The position numbers and the translations under genes were made by a program. Source: Nitrospirota bacterium (lineage in GTDB: Bacteria > Nitrospirota > Nitrospiria > Nitrospirales > Nitrospiraceae). Taken from it: a stretch of 47,697 nucleotides of DNA. Positions 14,661 through 27,158 of this stretch are shown piece by piece; position 1 is the first letter of the stretch; each line of letters starts with the position of its first letter. The notes beneath the pieces were generated by a model, which was not told the DNA's origin, made no database searches, and saw only the letters and a list, made by a program, of their open reading frames with translations. Where the stretch lies: contig JAHRHE010000021.1 in NCBI GenBank assembly GCA_020027965.1, forward strand, positions 1-47,697, in the 5' to 3' direction.

Positions 14661-14775
14661 TTCTTCCCCTCTCCGAACGCGCGCATGCCGGCTCTCCGAC
14701 CGTCCGCTCTCCATCCTTCACGGGCCCCAGGGAGAAAGCCCGAGCGAGAAGGATGTCGCGGCATCAGACGGTCAC

Positions 14776-15290
14776 TGCGCGTCGAGCGAGCACACCTCTG
14801 TTAATCCATTCGGTTATAGGGCAGGTGGCCTAGCGGCCTCAGACTGCGCGCGTCATCACCCGTTGCATTCCTGGGAGCAACGGGTACCCGGCACACATCC
14901 ACCTTCTCTCAAGACCCGGTGGCTTGGCTGACCCCAATTGCGCGCGTCATTTTCACCCGCCCACCCCGGGCGCGCCAAGACGCGCCCTTGCCCGAGCGAG
15001 CACCCCTTCAGCCGTTTCTCCATCAACAAGCGGGCAGGTGGCAGGGTGGACTCAGACTGCGCGCGTCCACCGAGCACACATCCATCACTGTCCGAACCGA
15101 TAGATCCTGTGTGCGCGGTGCGCGAGCACGGGAGGCCACCTGCCACCTCGCCCGCTCTCCCACGTTCTTGAGTGCGCGCTCCGCGAGGCGCGCGACGCGA
15201 CGAATAAGGAGCGTCACGTTTGCGCGCGCCGGCGAGGCGGTGAGCCGGCGGTGTCTTCGTGCGGGTCGGCCATGCCACCGGGCTCCCGCC
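14776..15290 (-). repeat. GC-rich repeat array A (reverse orientation to array B)
   Basis: Cores of the form TGCGCG(C)-N3/5-GCGAGCA are at 14776-14792, 15058-15076, 15112-15128 and 15173-15189 (last base pair diverged). They are the reverse complement of the array B core TGCTCGC-N3/5-GCGCGCA. Associated flank words GGTGGCTTGGCTGACCCC (near 14917-14934) and GGTCGGCCATGCCACCGGG (near 15264-15281) also match array B. The segment 14934-15006 matches the reverse complement of 22158-22230 with about 4 differences in 73 bases, counted by eye. Confidence 0.8.
14858..14885. repeat. Hairpin with ACCCGTTGC stem inside array A
   Basis: ACCCGTTGC (14858-14866) pairs perfectly with GCAACGGGT (14877-14885) around a 10-base loop. 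The same stem sequence forms the core of the hairpin at 7734-7766, so this is a second copy of a dispersed hairpin. No T-run follows. Confidence 0.65.
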
Positions 15291-15297
15291 CTTCCTT

Positions 15298-16743
15298 TCA
15301 CCCCAACGCTCGCTCAAGCGCTCGGATACGCGCCTCCACCCTCTTTCTGGCCGTACCCCCGATCTGAGACTTCCGCTCAAGGGCCCCCTCCACGGTCACG
15401 GCATCCAGCGCGTCCTTCTCGAAACGGTCCGAAAAGGCGCGCAGGTCGGTCAGGGTCAGATCGCGGAGCTCCCGTCCCTCGTCCAGGCAGGCCCGGACGA
15501 CACGCCCGGCCGTCTCATGGGCCTTCCGAAACGGCATACCCTTGGTCACCAGATAATCCGCCAGTTCAGTGGCCAACAAATAACCGGAATTCGCGGCCCT
15601 GGCCATCGCCGCGCGATGCACCGTGAGCCCATTGACCAGTTCCGCAGAGATCTCCACGCAGGCCGAGGCTGTATCCAGCGCGTCGAACACGGCCTCTTTG
15701 TCTTCCTGGAGATCCCGGTTGTAGCTGAGCGGCAAACCCTTCAGCGTGGTCAACAAGGCCAGCAGGTGGCCGTACACGCGTCCGGTCTTGCCGCGCACCA
15801 GCTCCGGCACGTCCGGATTTTTCTTCTGGGGCATCATGCTGCTCCCGGTGCAGAACGAGTCCGGTAACTCGATGAACTGGAATTCCTGGGACGACCAGAG
15901 CACCAACTCCTCGCTCAGGCGCGACAGATGCATCATCAGGATCGAGAGCGCGGACAGCACCTCGATCGCAAAGTCCCGGTCGGAGACCGCATCCAGGCTG
16001 TTCTCGGTCACGGCGGAAAAGCCCAGCAGCTTGGCCGTATACACCCGATCCACGGGGTAGTTGGTCCCGGCCAGGGCGCCGGCCCCGAGCGGCAGGACAT
16101 CGAGACGCCCACGCGCATCCTGCATCCGTCCGCGGTCCCGCTCCAGCATCTCGACGTAGGCCAACAGATGATGCGCAAGGAGCACCGGCTGGGCGCGCTG
16201 GAGATGCGTGTACCCGGGCATCACCACGTCCAGGTGGGCCCGCGCCTGTTTCACGAACGCCTGCTGGAGGCGCCGCACGCCTTCCAGCAGAGAGCCGAGC
16301 GCCTCCTTGAGGAAGAGACGTAGATCCAGCGAGACTTGGTCGTTGCGGCTGCGTCCGGTGTGGAGCTTGCCACCGACCGGCCCGATCAGCTCAGTGAGGC
16401 GCCGCTCGATCGCCATGTGGATGTCTTCATCGCTCGGGTCGAACGGGAAACGGCCCGTCTCGAGTTCCCGCTTCACTTCCTCGAGTCCGCGAATCATCGA
16501 AACGACCTCGCGGCGGGAGAGCACCCCGGCCCGCTCGAGCGTCTTGCAGTGGGCGATGCTGCCCTGAATATCATAGGGGTACAGGCGCCGGTCGAAGCCG
16601 AGCGAGGCCGTGAAGGTCTCCACCAGCCGGTCCGTGCGCTCACGGAATCTGCCGGACCAGAGCTTCTCCGGTTGTTGCCCCGCTCCGGCTCGAGCCCCTG
16701 ACCGGCGGGGACCGCCGCCGCGCGGCTTCTTTCGCTGAGTCAT
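15298..16743 (-). CDS. argH: Argininosuccinate lyase
   Basis: Splits argininosuccinate to arginine and fumarate, the last step of arginine synthesis. The fumarase/aspartase superfamily signature GSSMMPQKKNPD is present, with HTGRSRNDQ and the TxHLQRAQP loop. It is 481 residues; the first about 25 (Lys/Arg/Gly-rich) extend beyond the usual KLWSGRF start. It follows argG by 34 bases, and a perfect 17-base palindrome occupies the expected ribosome-site region. Downstream the run is interrupted by repeat array A. Confidence 0.97.
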   Translation of the reverse strand: MTQRKKPRGGGPRRSGARAGAGQQPEKLWSGRFRERTDRLVETFTASLGFDRRLYPYDIQGSIAHCKTLERAGVLSRREVVSMIRGLEEVKRELETGRFPFDPSDEDIHMAIERRLTELIGPVGGKLHTGRSRNDQVSLDLRLFLKEALGSLLEGVRRLQQAFVKQARAHLDVVMPGYTHLQRAQPVLLAHHLLAYVEMLERDRGRMQDARGRLDVLPLGAGALAGTNYPVDRVYTAKLLGFSAVTENSLDAVSDRDFAIEVLSALSILMMHLSRLSEELVLWSSQEFQFIELPDSFCTGSSMMPQKKNPDVPELVRGKTGRVYGHLLALLTTLKGLPLSYNRDLQEDKEAVFDALDTASACVEISAELVNGLTVHRAAMARAANSGYLLATELADYLVTKGMPFRKAHETAGRVVRACLDEGRELRDLTLTDLRAFSDRFEKDALDAVTVEGALERKSQIGGTARKRVEARIRALERALG

Positions 16744-21041: not shown

Positions 21042-21923
21042 TTACCGGGACGGTCTGGCCATCTGCCATTTGAACCAGGCCTGGAACCACTCGAAGTCGT
21101 GTTGGTAGGCCGCGCTGGTGGGCTCGGCGCTGGCAGCCTGATGCTCGAACCGGGTGTAGGTGCGCGGCCAGTTCTTCTGCCACCAGGATTTGAGCTCATC
21201 CGCCGCGTAGGGTACGCCGGAGACCTGGTGAATCCCGGCCGCCCCAATCACGTCGGCGATGAGCGGCCAGTACCGGTCCTTGCCCAGTCCCAGCGCCTTG
21301 AAGTGCTCGCGGAGCAGGAACACCACCCACAGCTCCGCGCTGTTCTTCTTGTTGTGCTTGAAGGGTTGCGTCTGGCGGAGCGGGATCGGATCGAAGTTCT
21401 TGACGACGGAGGTATAATCGGGCCCGCCGTAGCTGCCCGCGACCTCGGCGATGCCCTCCAGCATGCGGGCCAGCTCGACCTCCACGACCGGCCGGCTCTG
21501 GGCGGGATCGGGCGGCGCCTCGGGGGCCATGGGGTTCGAAGCGGTCAGCAGGTCGATCAGCGGCTTGAGTTCGCGCAAGCGGACCACCGCGCCTTTCAGG
21601 ATTTGCTCCGATTCCAGCCAGTAGTCCTGATCGTTCTTGGACATCCGCTCCCGCCCTGGTGGGGGCAGGACCGGCGGGATCCAATACCGCAACAGGACGA
21701 AGAGCATATAGTTGGCGTCGCCGCCCACCCGGTGCGCCCGCTCCAGCGCGCCCTGCCGGCCCAGCGCGTTCTTGAAGAACTGCTGGCCTCGCTCCTGCAC
21801 TCCGAGGCGGCGGGCCATGCCGACCCACCACTGTTCGAGCGCCTCCCATTCGGGCTTCTCTGGGACTGGCTGAACGGACACTCCGGACTCCTGTGTCACG
21901 CGGACCCCACTCGCTGCGCGCAT
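21042..21923 (-). CDS. Conserved-looking protein of unknown function
   Basis: The frame extends into repeat array B, but I start it at the ATG at 21923, where protein-like sequence begins; upstream translation is repeat-derived Arg/Ser/Pro sequence. A GTG seven codons further in is also possible. The 293-residue product is soluble, Trp- and Arg-rich (EQWWVGMARRLG, LLRYWIPPVLPPPGRERM, WWQKNWPRTYTRFEH), mixed alpha in feel, with no signal peptide or membrane segment. No family recognised. It converges with the DUF2628 gene across a 28-base AT-rich spacer. Confidence 0.65.
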   Translation of the reverse strand: MRAASGVRVTQESGVSVQPVPEKPEWEALEQWWVGMARRLGVQERGQQFFKNALGRQGALERAHRVGGDANYMLFVLLRYWIPPVLPPPGRERMSKNDQDYWLESEQILKGAVVRLRELKPLIDLLTASNPMAPEAPPDPAQSRPVVEVELARMLEGIAEVAGSYGGPDYTSVVKNFDPIPLRQTQPFKHNKKNSAELWVVFLLREHFKALGLGKDRYWPLIADVIGAAGIHQVSGVPYAADELKSWWQKNWPRTYTRFEHQAASAEPTSAAYQHDFEWFQAWFKWQMARPSR

Positions 21924-21988
21924 GGTAGCGCCTGAGTGGGGTGATTGCAAGAAGTGGGGACGGCGCCAGGGGACAGGCCTGACCCGCG

Positions 21989-22689
21989 TGCTCGCGCACC
22001 GCGCACACAAGAAGGAGGGGCGGCCGGTGGCCTGGCTGACCCGCCTGCTCGCGGAGCGCGCACTCAGGATTGTCAGTAGCGGCCCTGCAGGATGGAGTGC
22101 TCGCTCGACGCGCGCAATAGGGGTCAGCCACGCCACCGGGCCTTCAGAGAAGGTGGAGGGGTGCTCGCTCGGGCAAGGGCGCGTCTGGGCGCGCCCGGGG
22201 TGGGTGGGTGAAAATGACGCGTGCAGTTGGAGGCAGTCTTGCCGCCACCCCAGAGTGGGGAAGCGGCGTGCTCGCGGAGCGCGCACTCAAGAAGGAGGGG
22301 CAGGGCGGTCAGGGCGGGCCCCTGCTCGCAGAGCGCGCACACGGGAACATTTGAAAAAAGCGTGGATAGTGTGCTCGCTCGATGCGCGCAATAGGTCCCA
22401 CCCTGACCACCCTGCTCGATGAGAAAACAAGAGACGCGCGCAATTGGGGTCAGCCACGCCACCGGGCTCTGGGGGTAGTGATGAATGTGCTCGCGCACCG
22501 CGCACTCAAGACCTATTGGTTCCGGGCCTTGGAGGATAGAGTGCTCGGTGGACGCGCGCAGTCTCAGGCCACCCACCCACACGCCATCGAGCCTCGAAGA
22601 AGGAGACTTGCTCGCTCGATGTGCGGAATAGGGGTCACGCACGCCACCCGGCTTTGGAGATGGTGGTGAAGGTGCTCGCGCAGCGCGCA
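21989..22689 (+). repeat. GC-rich repeat array B, ten degenerate cores about 50-65 bases apart
   Basis: Core TGCTCGC-N3-GCGCGCA (type alpha) at 21989, 22046, 22269, 22323, 22488 and 22673. Core TGCTCGC-N5-GCGCGCA (type beta) at 22098, 22372, 22542 and 22609, some with one or two changes. Beta cores tend to be followed by AATAGGGGTCAGCCACGCCACC. Some alpha cores are followed by CTCAAGA, and the one at 22046 is preceded by GGTGGCCTGGCTGACCC, the same tail in reverse. Spacing is mostly 50-65 bases, with some doubled or irregular gaps. The arrangement is BIME-like: palindromic units in both orientations. I do not recognise the family. Confidence 0.8.
22024..22139. repeat. 116-base hairpin inside array B
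   Basis: CCGGTGGCCTGGCTGACCC (22024-22042) pairs with GGGTCAGCCACGCCACCGG (22121-22139) at 18 of 19 positions. The loop contains one alpha core and one beta core, both themselves imperfect palindromes. This is the clearest complete inverted-pair unit of the family. Confidence 0.75.
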
Positions 22690-22698
22690 CATTTCACG

Positions 22699-22760
22699 GC
22701 GTCGCTCGCATCTCGTATCTCGTTTCGGACGAGGGACGCTTCACAAATGACGAGCGACGC
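22699..22760. repeat. REP-like palindrome, copy 2 (upstream of gpmA)
   Basis: Outer stem GCGTCGCTCG (22699-22708) pairs perfectly with CGAGCGACGC (22751-22760). The interior carries TCTCGTATCTCGT, GGACGAGG and ACGCTTCAC, the same words as copies 1 and 3. It sits directly after array B and directly before the gpmA promoter. Confidence 0.7.
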
Positions 22761-22768
22761 AAGGGCTC

Positions 22769-24755: not shown

Positions 24756-27158
24756 GTGCCCCTCAACGAAGCTGACACCCGCGCTAAGCTGATTGATCCG
24801 GCGCTCCACACCCGCGGCTGGACAGAAGACCTGATCCGCCGGGAGGAAACCGCCGGAGCGATCGAAGTCATTGACGGCAGGCCCCGCAAGCAAGCCAAGG
24901 GGCGGATGGACTATACCCTGCGCGTCAAGGTAAACCCGGACACACAACCGATTGCCGTGGCGCTCATCGAGGCCAAGGCAGAAAACCTCCCTCCAACTCA
25001 CGGCCTAGAACAAGCCAAAGCTTACGCAGCCTGCCGGCGCCTCAACGTGCAGTTTGTCTTTTCCAGCAACGGCCACCTGTTCGTCGAGTACGACCGGACG
25101 ACCGGCCAGACCACGTCGCCGCGCCTGCTGAACGAGTTCCCAACGCCTGCCGACCTGCGCACCCGGTATGAGAAGGGCATGGGGTTCACGCTGGACGACG
25201 CGGCAGCCCGACCGTTGCTCGCCCGCTATACCGGAGGCGAGGCCACGCGCCGGTACTATCAAGACGCCGCGATCCGCTCCGTGCTGGAGAAGATTGCGCG
25301 CTGCGACAAAACCGGCCAGCCCAAGCGCGCTCTGCTGTCATTGGCGACCGGCTCAGGCAAGACCTTCATCGCCGTCAATCTGCTCAAGCGCATTGCCGAT
25401 GCCGGGCAACTCCGCCGGGCGCTCTTTGTCTGTGATCGTGACGAACTCCGCAGCCAGGGTGCCGGTGCCTTCCAGAATATCTTCGGTGCAGACGCAGCGC
25501 CGGTCTTTCTTAAACCAGACGGTACCAACAACGCGCGCAACGCCCGCGTCCACATTGCGACCTACCAGACGCTCGACGTGGACACCGACGATGCCACCGC
25601 CAACTTCCTGGTCAAGCACTATCCCGAAAACTATTTCAGTCACATCATCATTGATGAGTGCCACCGCTCGGCGTGGGGCAAATGGTCGCAGGTGCTCAAA
25701 CGCAACCCTGATGCCGTGCAGATCGGCCTCACCGCCACGCCCCGGCAGTTCAAGATCACCGAAAAGACAAAAGAAGCCCTGGCCGACGCGCAGATAACCG
25801 CTGACAACCTCCGCCACTTCGGCGAGCCGGTCTATGAATATGACATGAGCCAGGGGATTGACGATGGCTATCTCGCGGCCTGCGAGGTCCGTCGGTTTGA
25901 TCTCTTTCACGACAACAAGCAGGCGAATGAACGGGAAACCGGTGTCAAACGGGAAGACTTGCGCGGAAAGGTCCTGACCGATGCGATGACGGGTCACGAA
26001 GTCAGCGGGGATAGTGCGAGGGAGTATTACGACCCAGCCAGCATTGAGGACAAGCTCCTCATGCCTGAGCGGGTCGCCGCCATGACGCAGGACCTGTTCA
26101 ACCATTTATTGGCCACAGGCGGCCCCGAACAGAAAACCATCATCTTCTGCCGTCGCGACCGCCATGCGGACGACGTTGCCACAGCGATGAACAACCTGTA
26201 TGCAGACTGGTGCACCAAGAACGGCAGGCCCCGGATGGACCCCTACGCCTTCAAGTGCACGGCCTCAGTGGGAGGCGCGGACTATATCGCCGATTTGCGC
26301 GGCGGCTCCCGCCATCACTTCGTCGCGACCACGGTGGATCTCTTGACCACCGGCGTGGACGTGCCGGTCGTCCGGAACATCGTTTTCTTCAAGTACGTCC
26401 GCTCTCCCATCGCCTTTTACCAGATGGTCGGGCGCGGTACGCGTCTTGATGCGCCTACCGGCAAGCTCATGTTCCGCGTCTACGACTACACTGATGCGAC
26501 GCGACTTTTCGGTGAAGAGTTCATCACCAAGGCCACGCCGCCACGAAAGCGCAAGGAGGAACCAAGCCCGGAACCTCCGGAGCCGCTGGAACCCACCATT
26601 CAAGTTGAGGGCTTCGACGTCCGCGTGACCGACGCCGGGCGCTACCTCGTGACACAAGTGGATGGCAAAGCTATGCCTGTCACTATAGAGGAATACAAGG
26701 CGCGTCTGGCGGCGAAACTCGTTGAGGAAGCCCCGACGCTGGAAAAGTTTCGTGCTCGCTGGATCGCACCAGCTGAGCGTCGAGAACTCCTGCAGAACCT
26801 GCCGGACGCGGGTCGGTCGCCCCTCTTGGTCCGGTCGCTGGAGAATATGAGCGAGTACGACCTATACGACGTGCTGGCCGAACTGGGGTATGGCCTGAAT
26901 CCGCGTACCCGTCCCGAGCGCGCCGACGCGTTCACTTACAAGCACGAGGGCTGGTTGTCGAAATTGCCGGCGCCTACGGCCGCGACGTTGAAGGCCCTGG
27001 CTGCGCAATTCGCGCGTGCCGGGACGGATGGCCTAGAGAACCCGGAGGTTTTCCAGACGCCCGAAGTTCAGAAGGCCGGCGGTATGGCCGCACTCAAAGC
27101 CCTGGGCAAACCCGCTGACGTGCTGCAACAAACCAAGGAGCGAATGTTCGCGGCATGA
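24756..27158 (+). CDS. hsdR: Type I restriction endonuclease subunit R
   Basis: Motor and nuclease subunit of a type I restriction-modification complex. N-terminal PD-(D/E)xK site Asp52...Glu72-x-Lys74 in ALIEAKAE; then superfamily 2 helicase motifs: Walker A ATGSGKT, DECH box IIIDECHRS, motif III IGLTATP, motif VI QMVGRGTRLD; then a C-terminal coupling region. 800 residues, all motifs intact. Start GTG at 24756 with GCGAGG just upstream. Its stop overlaps the hsdS start as ATGA. The sequence gives no sign that it is inactive, which matters because the partner HsdM looks catalytically dead. Confidence 0.95.
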   Translation: MPLNEADTRAKLIDPALHTRGWTEDLIRREETAGAIEVIDGRPRKQAKGRMDYTLRVKVNPDTQPIAVALIEAKAENLPPTHGLEQAKAYAACRRLNVQFVFSSNGHLFVEYDRTTGQTTSPRLLNEFPTPADLRTRYEKGMGFTLDDAAARPLLARYTGGEATRRYYQDAAIRSVLEKIARCDKTGQPKRALLSLATGSGKTFIAVNLLKRIADAGQLRRALFVCDRDELRSQGAGAFQNIFGADAAPVFLKPDGTNNARNARVHIATYQTLDVDTDDATANFLVKHYPENYFSHIIIDECHRSAWGKWSQVLKRNPDAVQIGLTATPRQFKITEKTKEALADAQITADNLRHFGEPVYEYDMSQGIDDGYLAACEVRRFDLFHDNKQANERETGVKREDLRGKVLTDAMTGHEVSGDSAREYYDPASIEDKLLMPERVAAMTQDLFNHLLATGGPEQKTIIFCRRDRHADDVATAMNNLYADWCTKNGRPRMDPYAFKCTASVGGADYIADLRGGSRHHFVATTVDLLTTGVDVPVVRNIVFFKYVRSPIAFYQMVGRGTRLDAPTGKLMFRVYDYTDATRLFGEEFITKATPPRKRKEEPSPEPPEPLEPTIQVEGFDVRVTDAGRYLVTQVDGKAMPVTIEEYKARLAAKLVEEAPTLEKFRARWIAPAERRELLQNLPDAGRSPLLVRSLENMSEYDLYDVLAELGYGLNPRTRPERADAFTYKHEGWLSKLPAPTAATLKALAAQFARAGTDGLENPEVFQTPEVQKAGGMAALKALGKPADVLQQTKERMFAA

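Follow-up and report, generated by a model that had tools for sequence, protein, structure and literature searches.

The window analysed here is the whole stretch of 47,697 nucleotides from contig JAHRHE010000021.1 of a Nitrospirota bacterium (assembly GCA_020027965.1). Its main repeat array lies between divergent genes, an unnamed ORF running leftwards and a gene of the His-phosphatase/phosphoglycerate-mutase family from 22825. A preliminary description had reported ten copies of TGCTCGC-N3/5-GCGCGCA at this place, in two flavours (alpha and beta) and mostly 50-65 bases apart. The array is real: the exact pattern TGCTCGC-N3..5-GCGCGCA was found six times in the window, all within 22046-22689, against 0.02 expected from dinucleotide shuffles, and allowing up to two substitutions gave 10 copies within 700 bp. 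The flavours and the spacing were also correctly described, alpha being 17 nt long with a 5-nt middle and beta 19 nt with a 7-nt middle, at intervals of 50-65 nt. A second array on the minus strand had been missed, as had the pairing of alpha with beta, the nested and adjacent hairpins and the 94 copies in the genome. Close to the main array are a short strong hairpin, an unrelated long inverted repeat and a Type I restriction enzyme R subunit gene (Table 1).

Table 1. Features of the two arrays and their surroundings in the window, with loci carrying other hairpins at the sucC-sucD junction.
Feature	Position or locus	Strand	Basis or remark
Starts of motif copies (up to two substitutions)	21989, 22046, 22098, 22269, 22323, 22372, 22488, 22542, 22609, 22673		
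Alpha-type copy TGCTCGCGCACCGCGCA, outermost 5′ strand of the array	21989..22005	+	Motif, up to two substitutions
Module 1, complete	22022..22140	+	Covariance model R1, 66.8 bits, E 4.5e-18
Module 1: 5′ arm; alpha; loop; beta; 3′ arm	22022-22045; 22046-22062; 22063-22097; 22098-22116; 22117-22140		
Beta-type strand, bulge expanded by GGGCAAGGGCGCGTC..GGTGGGTGGGTGAAAATGA insert	22162..22225	+	Sequence; insert signature recurs
Alpha strand of outer module 2, encloses module 3	22269..22285	+	Exact motif
Module 3, inner of nested pair	22300..22414	+	Covariance model R1, 63.1 bits; fold
Module 3: alpha; beta	22323-22339; 22372-22390		Arms GGGCGGTCAGGGCGGGCCC / GGTCCCACCCTGACCACCC
Degenerate beta of outer module 2, TGCTCGATG..CGCGCGCA	22413..22463	+	Sequence; repeat family D1
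Module 4	22471..22576	+	Covariance model R1, 51.2 bits; 3′ arm intact, 5′ arm diverged
Module 4: alpha (CACCG); beta (CGGTG)	22488-22504; 22542-22560		
Degenerate beta remnant TGCTCGCTCGATGTGCGGA, 3′ arm AATAGGGGTCACGCACGCCACC	22609..22627	+	Motif, up to two substitutions; repeat
Unpaired alpha remnant TGCTCGCGCAGCGCGCA	22673..22689	+	Exact motif
Second array	about 14760-15240	-	Directly 3′ of argH in arginine-biosynthesis gene run
Beta insert of second array	14948-14965		
Complete module of second array	15034..15152	-	Covariance model R1, 64.3 bits
argH	15298-16743	-	Pfam
Short strong hairpin GACCCCACTCGCTGCGCGC...GAGTGGGGTG, just left of main array	21900-21945		
Unrelated long inverted repeat GCGTCGCTCGCATCTCGTATCTCGTTTCGGACGAGGGACGC...GACGAGCGACGC, beside main array	22701-22762		
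Type I restriction enzyme R subunit gene, close to main array	24756-27158	+	HsdR-like, EcoEI_R_C
sucC-sucD junctions with other hairpins	L286, L287, L288, L297, L300, L302, L309, L312		

Alpha and beta had been taken for alternating palindromic cores. Folding, side-by-side comparison and covariation rule out independent palindromes and reveal that the two make up a single hairpin head, alpha as its 5′ strand and beta as its 3′ strand. Alpha reads TGCTCG-N5-CGCGCA and beta TGCTCG-N7-CGCGCA; the TGCTCG of alpha pairs with the CGCGCA of beta and vice versa, with two T·C mismatches remaining, and the middles pair with each other, leaving a 2-nt bulge in beta. These middle pairs covary (GAG/CTC, GAA/TTC, CAC/GTG, CAG/CTG, CAA/TTG). 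Beyond the head the arms are locus-specific and extend for ~20-25 bp, whilst the apical loop is either short (about 11 nt, e.g. CGATCAGAATG) or long (about 35 nt, CACAAGAT...GGATGTG or ...GGGCGG). A conserved tail had been said to appear in both orientations. Its copies are indeed present (GGGGTCAGCCACGCCACC at 22120-22137 and 22446-22463), but the copy in the other orientation (CCGGTGGCCTGGCTGACCC, 22024-22042) is the 5′ arm of the same hairpin, so that the two orientations are one pair of arms.

In module 1 of the main array the arms GGTGGCCTGGCTGACCC/GGGTCAGCCACGCCACC pair with each other. Module 2 is a half-decayed outer module around module 3; its alpha matches the motif exactly, a copy elsewhere in the genome (L048) has the GACTGACCCGCC arm intact, and its degenerate beta has a bulge 11 nt larger and ends in the second tail copy as 3′ arm. 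Alpha and beta of module 4 pair through their middles, and no intact partner of the outermost alpha was found. A covariance model, which the preliminary description had proposed, recovered modules 1, 3 and 4 of the main array and a module of the second (Table 1). Modules nest in one another's loops up to four deep, and at L038 the order alpha1 alpha2 alpha3 alpha4 ... beta4 beta3 beta2 beta1 folds as one hairpin of ~600-700 nt. The outermost alpha/beta strands of nested arrays (L038, L019) repeatedly carry a further hairpin module, GACCCGTTGC...GCAACGGGT. Moreover, the bulge of beta can house an extra hairpin insert (GGGCGCGTC..GGTGGGYGGGTGAAAAWG), with 18 copies in this genome (once in each array of the window, and in G000 C8, C17, C18 and others) and single copies in a few relatives; it also lies within a beta in L292.

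The pairing is kept by compensatory change. For 51 short-form elements whose arms are unrelated to one another, the covariation score was 0.335, compared with 0.125±0.008 for shuffled alignments (0/500) and at most 0.104 for slid registers. Changes on both sides of a pair were found in 240 cells where 94 were expected, and both sides vary in all 11 arm pairs as well as in 7 head pairs. Across 101 arm clusters, arms scored 11.1 for pairing with their own partner and 1.6 for swapped arms. The arms are thus unrelated between loci and complementary within each. The original search pattern had fixed both mismatches; all four mismatch bases were then freed and 15 genomes searched again. Counts barely moved (e.g. 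22 to 22, 43 to 43, 9 to 9 and 11 to 11), and the extra matches among those listed were overlapping or antisense reads of known copies. Since freeing the four bases added almost no copies, the mismatches are invariant and were not imposed by the search.

The genome-wide motif search that had been suggested found the exact core pattern 94 times in this genome (3.6 Mb, 263 contigs), with none for the reversed control, and the exact two-part pattern 50 times. In the genomes compared, mostly MAGs, the two-part pattern was found in 147 of 175 Nitrospiraceae genomes, at 0-66 copies each (reversed control 0), and in none of about 217 Nitrospirota genomes of other families, orders and classes. These counts, together with the covariation, bear out the earlier opinion that the array is a structured dispersed palindromic element and not decay. 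A local duplication, found only here and devoid of compensatory change, had been named as the contrary outcome, and the result is strongly the opposite. The two-part pattern was also absent from the viral contigs searched, and no phage or plasmid DNA similar to the element was found; carriage by either was rejected. Where contigs with full elements are named, nearly all belong to Nitrospira or to Nitrospirae MAGs. Full elements were also seen in contigs assigned to other phyla, an Armatimonadetes MAG (L124) and an Elusimicrobia MAG (L153); L124 is near-identical to a copy in this genome (L074), which suggests mis-binned Nitrospiraceae contigs.

Copies are numerous in this genome and in genera g10 and g16; there they have arms in common and are the product of recent amplification. 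Outside these lineages genomes hold 0-18 copies with arms unrelated from site to site, and most copies are single, old and kept between species at the same junction. A variant head, TGCTCGCGCAACGCGCGGTCTCAGAAGACCCTCGTTGGACGCGCGCA, with a shorter inner motif occurs at atpD-atpC (L255, L263, L273 and others) and at sucC-sucD (L304, L310, L313, L314). The counting pattern misses this variant, and therefore the family counts are lower bounds.

Genomic context was drawn from about 330 sequence stretches, with genes called from codon-position composition rather than annotation and, except in the window, identified from their translations without database search. A coding stop stood within 150 nt of just one side of the element in 75 cases; in 73 of these the element lay 3′ of the gene on the same strand, and in 2 it was antisense (binomial p 1.5e-19); looser gene calls gave 99 sense and 7 antisense. 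The main array of the window, between divergent genes, is an exception to this rule. The distance from stop codon to element has its mode at 16-35 nt, the 5′ arm beginning at the stop codon. Occupied sites include frdA/sdhA-[element]-sucC-[element]-sucD, atpD-atpC, nuoCD-nuoE, rplA-rplJ and, in the S10 operon, rpsJ-rplC and rplW-rplB, as well as uvrA, folD, trpS, mraY and glmS. Different species have an element at the same atpD-atpC and sucC-sucD junctions, with compensatory changes. The atpD-atpC copies of 28 species belong to one of two head variants or derive from these by deletion, and loss of a copy by deletion was seen at L274. In other species the empty sucC-sucD junction consists of a 14-nt spacer (TAA-AGGAGAAGACC-GTG), whilst in occupied species the hairpin stands between the stop codon and the ribosome-binding site. 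The same 14-nt junction holds several other, sequence-unrelated hairpin elements in other Nitrospiraceae (Table 1), as if it were a hotspot for hairpin gain. The flank past the 3′ arm is purine-rich (15.6% T). As they lack a U-tract, the elements are not ordinary intrinsic terminators; many copies, moreover, lie between operon genes rather than at unit ends, with the next start within 27-60 nt.

This location fits an element of the mRNA, and to that extent agrees with the structured RNA that had been suggested; the mismatches, however, favour folding of the complement strand. In the 101 arm clusters, which are not fully independent and not phylogenetically corrected, isolated arm mismatches read on the sense strand were A·C in 69 cases and G·T in 23 (p 1.7e-6). 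The A·C excess was found in every context class and also at the variable head pairs, and transversion mismatches alone gave a weak bias (19 vs 10). Other hairpins 3′ of genes in the same genomes served as a control and showed no such bias (A·C 38 vs G·T 37; Fisher p 0.0013 for the comparison with the elements); terminators were too few to serve as a control for strand polarity (9 found). Fourfold sites had no composition bias matching the A·C excess, and together with the control hairpins this excludes a mutational bias as its source. A-to-I editing was likewise rejected, there being no preference for a TAC context. With DNA parameters the complement folded more stably in 96 of the 101 elements, and the head alone in 96 against 3, at a mean of -2.0 kcal/mol relative to the sense strand. 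With RNA parameters the complement was the more stable in 72 of 101, and the mean difference for the head was -0.12 kcal/mol. The mismatch types suggest that selection acts on the folded complement (template) strand, with which the folding energies agree, and this strand is more probably DNA than RNA.

The chief rival to a folded template strand is an intercistronic or 3′-UTR stem-loop of the sense mRNA, whose head would be bound by a clade-specific RNA-binding protein or nuclease and which could protect the upstream mRNA, tune expression within operons or affect ribosomes at the stop codon. The sense orientation 3′ of stop codons argues for it, as do the copies within the atp, suc, nuo, S10 and rplA-rplJ operons with their conserved orthologous junctions. 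There is also a precedent in E. coli, where REPs no more than 15 nt from stop codons are reported to affect ribosomes at the stop codon (PMC12306157). Against it stands the mismatch pattern: selection on an mRNA hairpin should leave more G·U than A·C in the sense strand, and the reverse was observed, whilst control hairpins had no bias. We regard this reading as somewhat unlikely, if a serious contender. The complement might instead act as RNA, for example as a one-way barrier against antisense transcription coming into genes from their 3′ ends, or as a processing site for it. Wobble-type mismatches do fall on the complement strand, and that strand is the more stable with RNA parameters too, as the 72 of 101 elements attest. 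The head, however, gains next to nothing on the complement with RNA parameters, compared with its clear gain with DNA parameters. A separate RNA would also need a promoter at dozens of operon-internal sites, of which none was identified, if without a systematic scan, and Rfam 15 gave no match above the curated thresholds, the sub-threshold hits being chance matches of miRNA type only. An antisense RNA element is accordingly improbable.

A comparison with known repeats places the element near two of them. Like REP/BIME/REPIN sequences (GTAG and CGTC superfamilies), it is a dispersed extragenic palindrome of many copies, 94 by the motif in its own genome; they too are short, occur in tens of copies and in clusters or arrays, and often lie near stop codons between genes. 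A few species are reported to have REP dimers within palindromes (PMC3733652, which lists nothing for Nitrospira), and this precedent comes closest to a conserved hairpin head seated on a foreign palindromic stem. However, a GTAG, GTGG or CGTC tag 0-2 nt 5′ of the hairpin was found in 1 of 404 tests (101 clusters by four hairpin starts). Alpha and beta are direct and not inverted, TGCTCG..CGCGCA lying on the same strand in 190 of 190 elements; here two direct strands form one head, whereas REPs seldom occur as head-to-tail dimers. The element is set apart further by covarying arms peculiar to each locus, by the invariant double mismatch and by confinement to a single family. The preliminary description had called the array BIME-like and proposed a search for a RAYT-like partner transposase. 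Y1 transposase (RAYT) was absent from several complete high-copy genomes; the genomes without it include G009, G046, G016 and G018, which hold 22, 32, 9 and 7 modules. It was present in the element-free G001, G011, G022, G032 and G037, and no motif lies near the two Y1 genes of this genome. A REP/BIME-RAYT system was therefore rejected on its tag, its unit orientation and a transposase that does not track copies.

Integron attC sites also lie 3′ of a gene and are imperfect palindromes of variable sequence and conserved structure with extrahelical features, and it is their bottom (template) strand that folds and is used (PMC2727003). The element may share this strand polarity, in that its mismatch asymmetry and DNA folding energies both favour the template strand. 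Its conserved part, however, is at the apex and not the base, and it resides in core operons rather than cassette arrays. Paired attC boxes (RYYYAAC/GTTRRRY) were found in 1 of 101 clusters, and 2 of 21 genomes had an integron integrase (TIGR02249) above the cut-off, with no relation to copy number; with boxes lacking and integrase not associated, attC was rejected. ERIC, RU, BOX and similar repeats are modular, non-coding intergenic palindromes of about 100 bp that are transcribed along with their neighbours. RU elements are treated in PMC2759123. In repeats of this kind conservation spans the whole unit, whereas in the present element it is limited to the head, and the modules are nested concentrically. 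MITEs and fold-back elements share the long inverted repeats, non-autonomous spread and nesting, but the arms of this element are unrelated between copies, among which no target-site duplication or terminal-repeat consensus was found. The element is thus a bacterial intergenic palindromic repeat of unusual architecture, REP-like and probably with attC-like strand polarity, that fails the defining tests of both. No description of it was found in the literature; RepRanger counted only generic palindromes in N. moscoviensis (PMC12306157).

Our tentative preference, at a little short of an even chance, is for a dispersed hairpin element of REP-like kind that is confined to Nitrospiraceae and active as a folded single strand. 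A putative homodimeric protein would recognise its head in the folded strand, most likely in single-stranded template DNA; the two mismatch motifs form a pseudo-dyad, for which reason the recogniser is probably dimeric. Recognition of the folded head would drive the spread of the element, and nesting would arise because hairpins insert into hairpin loops. At fixed sites the hairpin may be retained because it serves locally where genes end, for instance by marking or insulating junctions within operons. Several observations count against this explanation. No mobilising enzyme was found, neither Y1 transposase nor integron integrase tracking copy number, and no target-site duplication or clean single-step insertion could be defined among the copies. 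Moreover, the strict sense orientation 3′ of genes more naturally fits a role in the transcript.

The element could also be a site on double-stranded DNA at the 3′ ends of transcription units, bound by gyrase, a nucleoid protein or a terminus-type protein as in E. coli BIME-2, with the palindromes as dimer sites. The near-palindromic form of both alpha and beta, the 3′ location and the tens of copies per genome are consistent with this, but a duplex site does not need variable arms that covary over more than 20 bp, and the conserved T/C asymmetry matters only in a folded strand, which leaves this reading quite improbable. Template-switch correction in replication can homogenise long inverted repeats. 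Functionless inverted repeats whose complementarity is kept in this way, and whose copies are lost by deletion as at L274, are very improbable here, as such correction would remove the two mismatches and the bulge, the most conserved features, and the strict bias of position and orientation and a head whose identity is conserved across a bacterial family also argue against them.

Returning to the folded single strand, a more specific form of it is rather unlikely, namely a Nitrospiraceae-specific system whose putative enzyme, neither RAYT nor integron integrase, binds the double-mismatch hairpin of template-strand single-stranded DNA at gene ends, moves hairpins into hairpins and keeps them folded at the junctions of core operons. 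If true, bacteria would have a third type of system that recognises folded single-stranded DNA. The genus Nitrospira comprises key nitrifiers, and the element is present within essential operons in most genomes of its family, where annotation is blank. The hundreds of natural variants of one fold, with a clear signal of strand polarity, could be used to test whether selection on bacterial intergenic palindromes acts on RNA or on single-stranded DNA, which is still debated for REPs. The element also accounts for assembly breaks, several contigs of this genome ending in copies. In G000 C81, C118, C135, C194, C249, C254 and C261, copies are found no more than about 250 bases from a contig end, and for this reason the element is the probable cause of the breaks.
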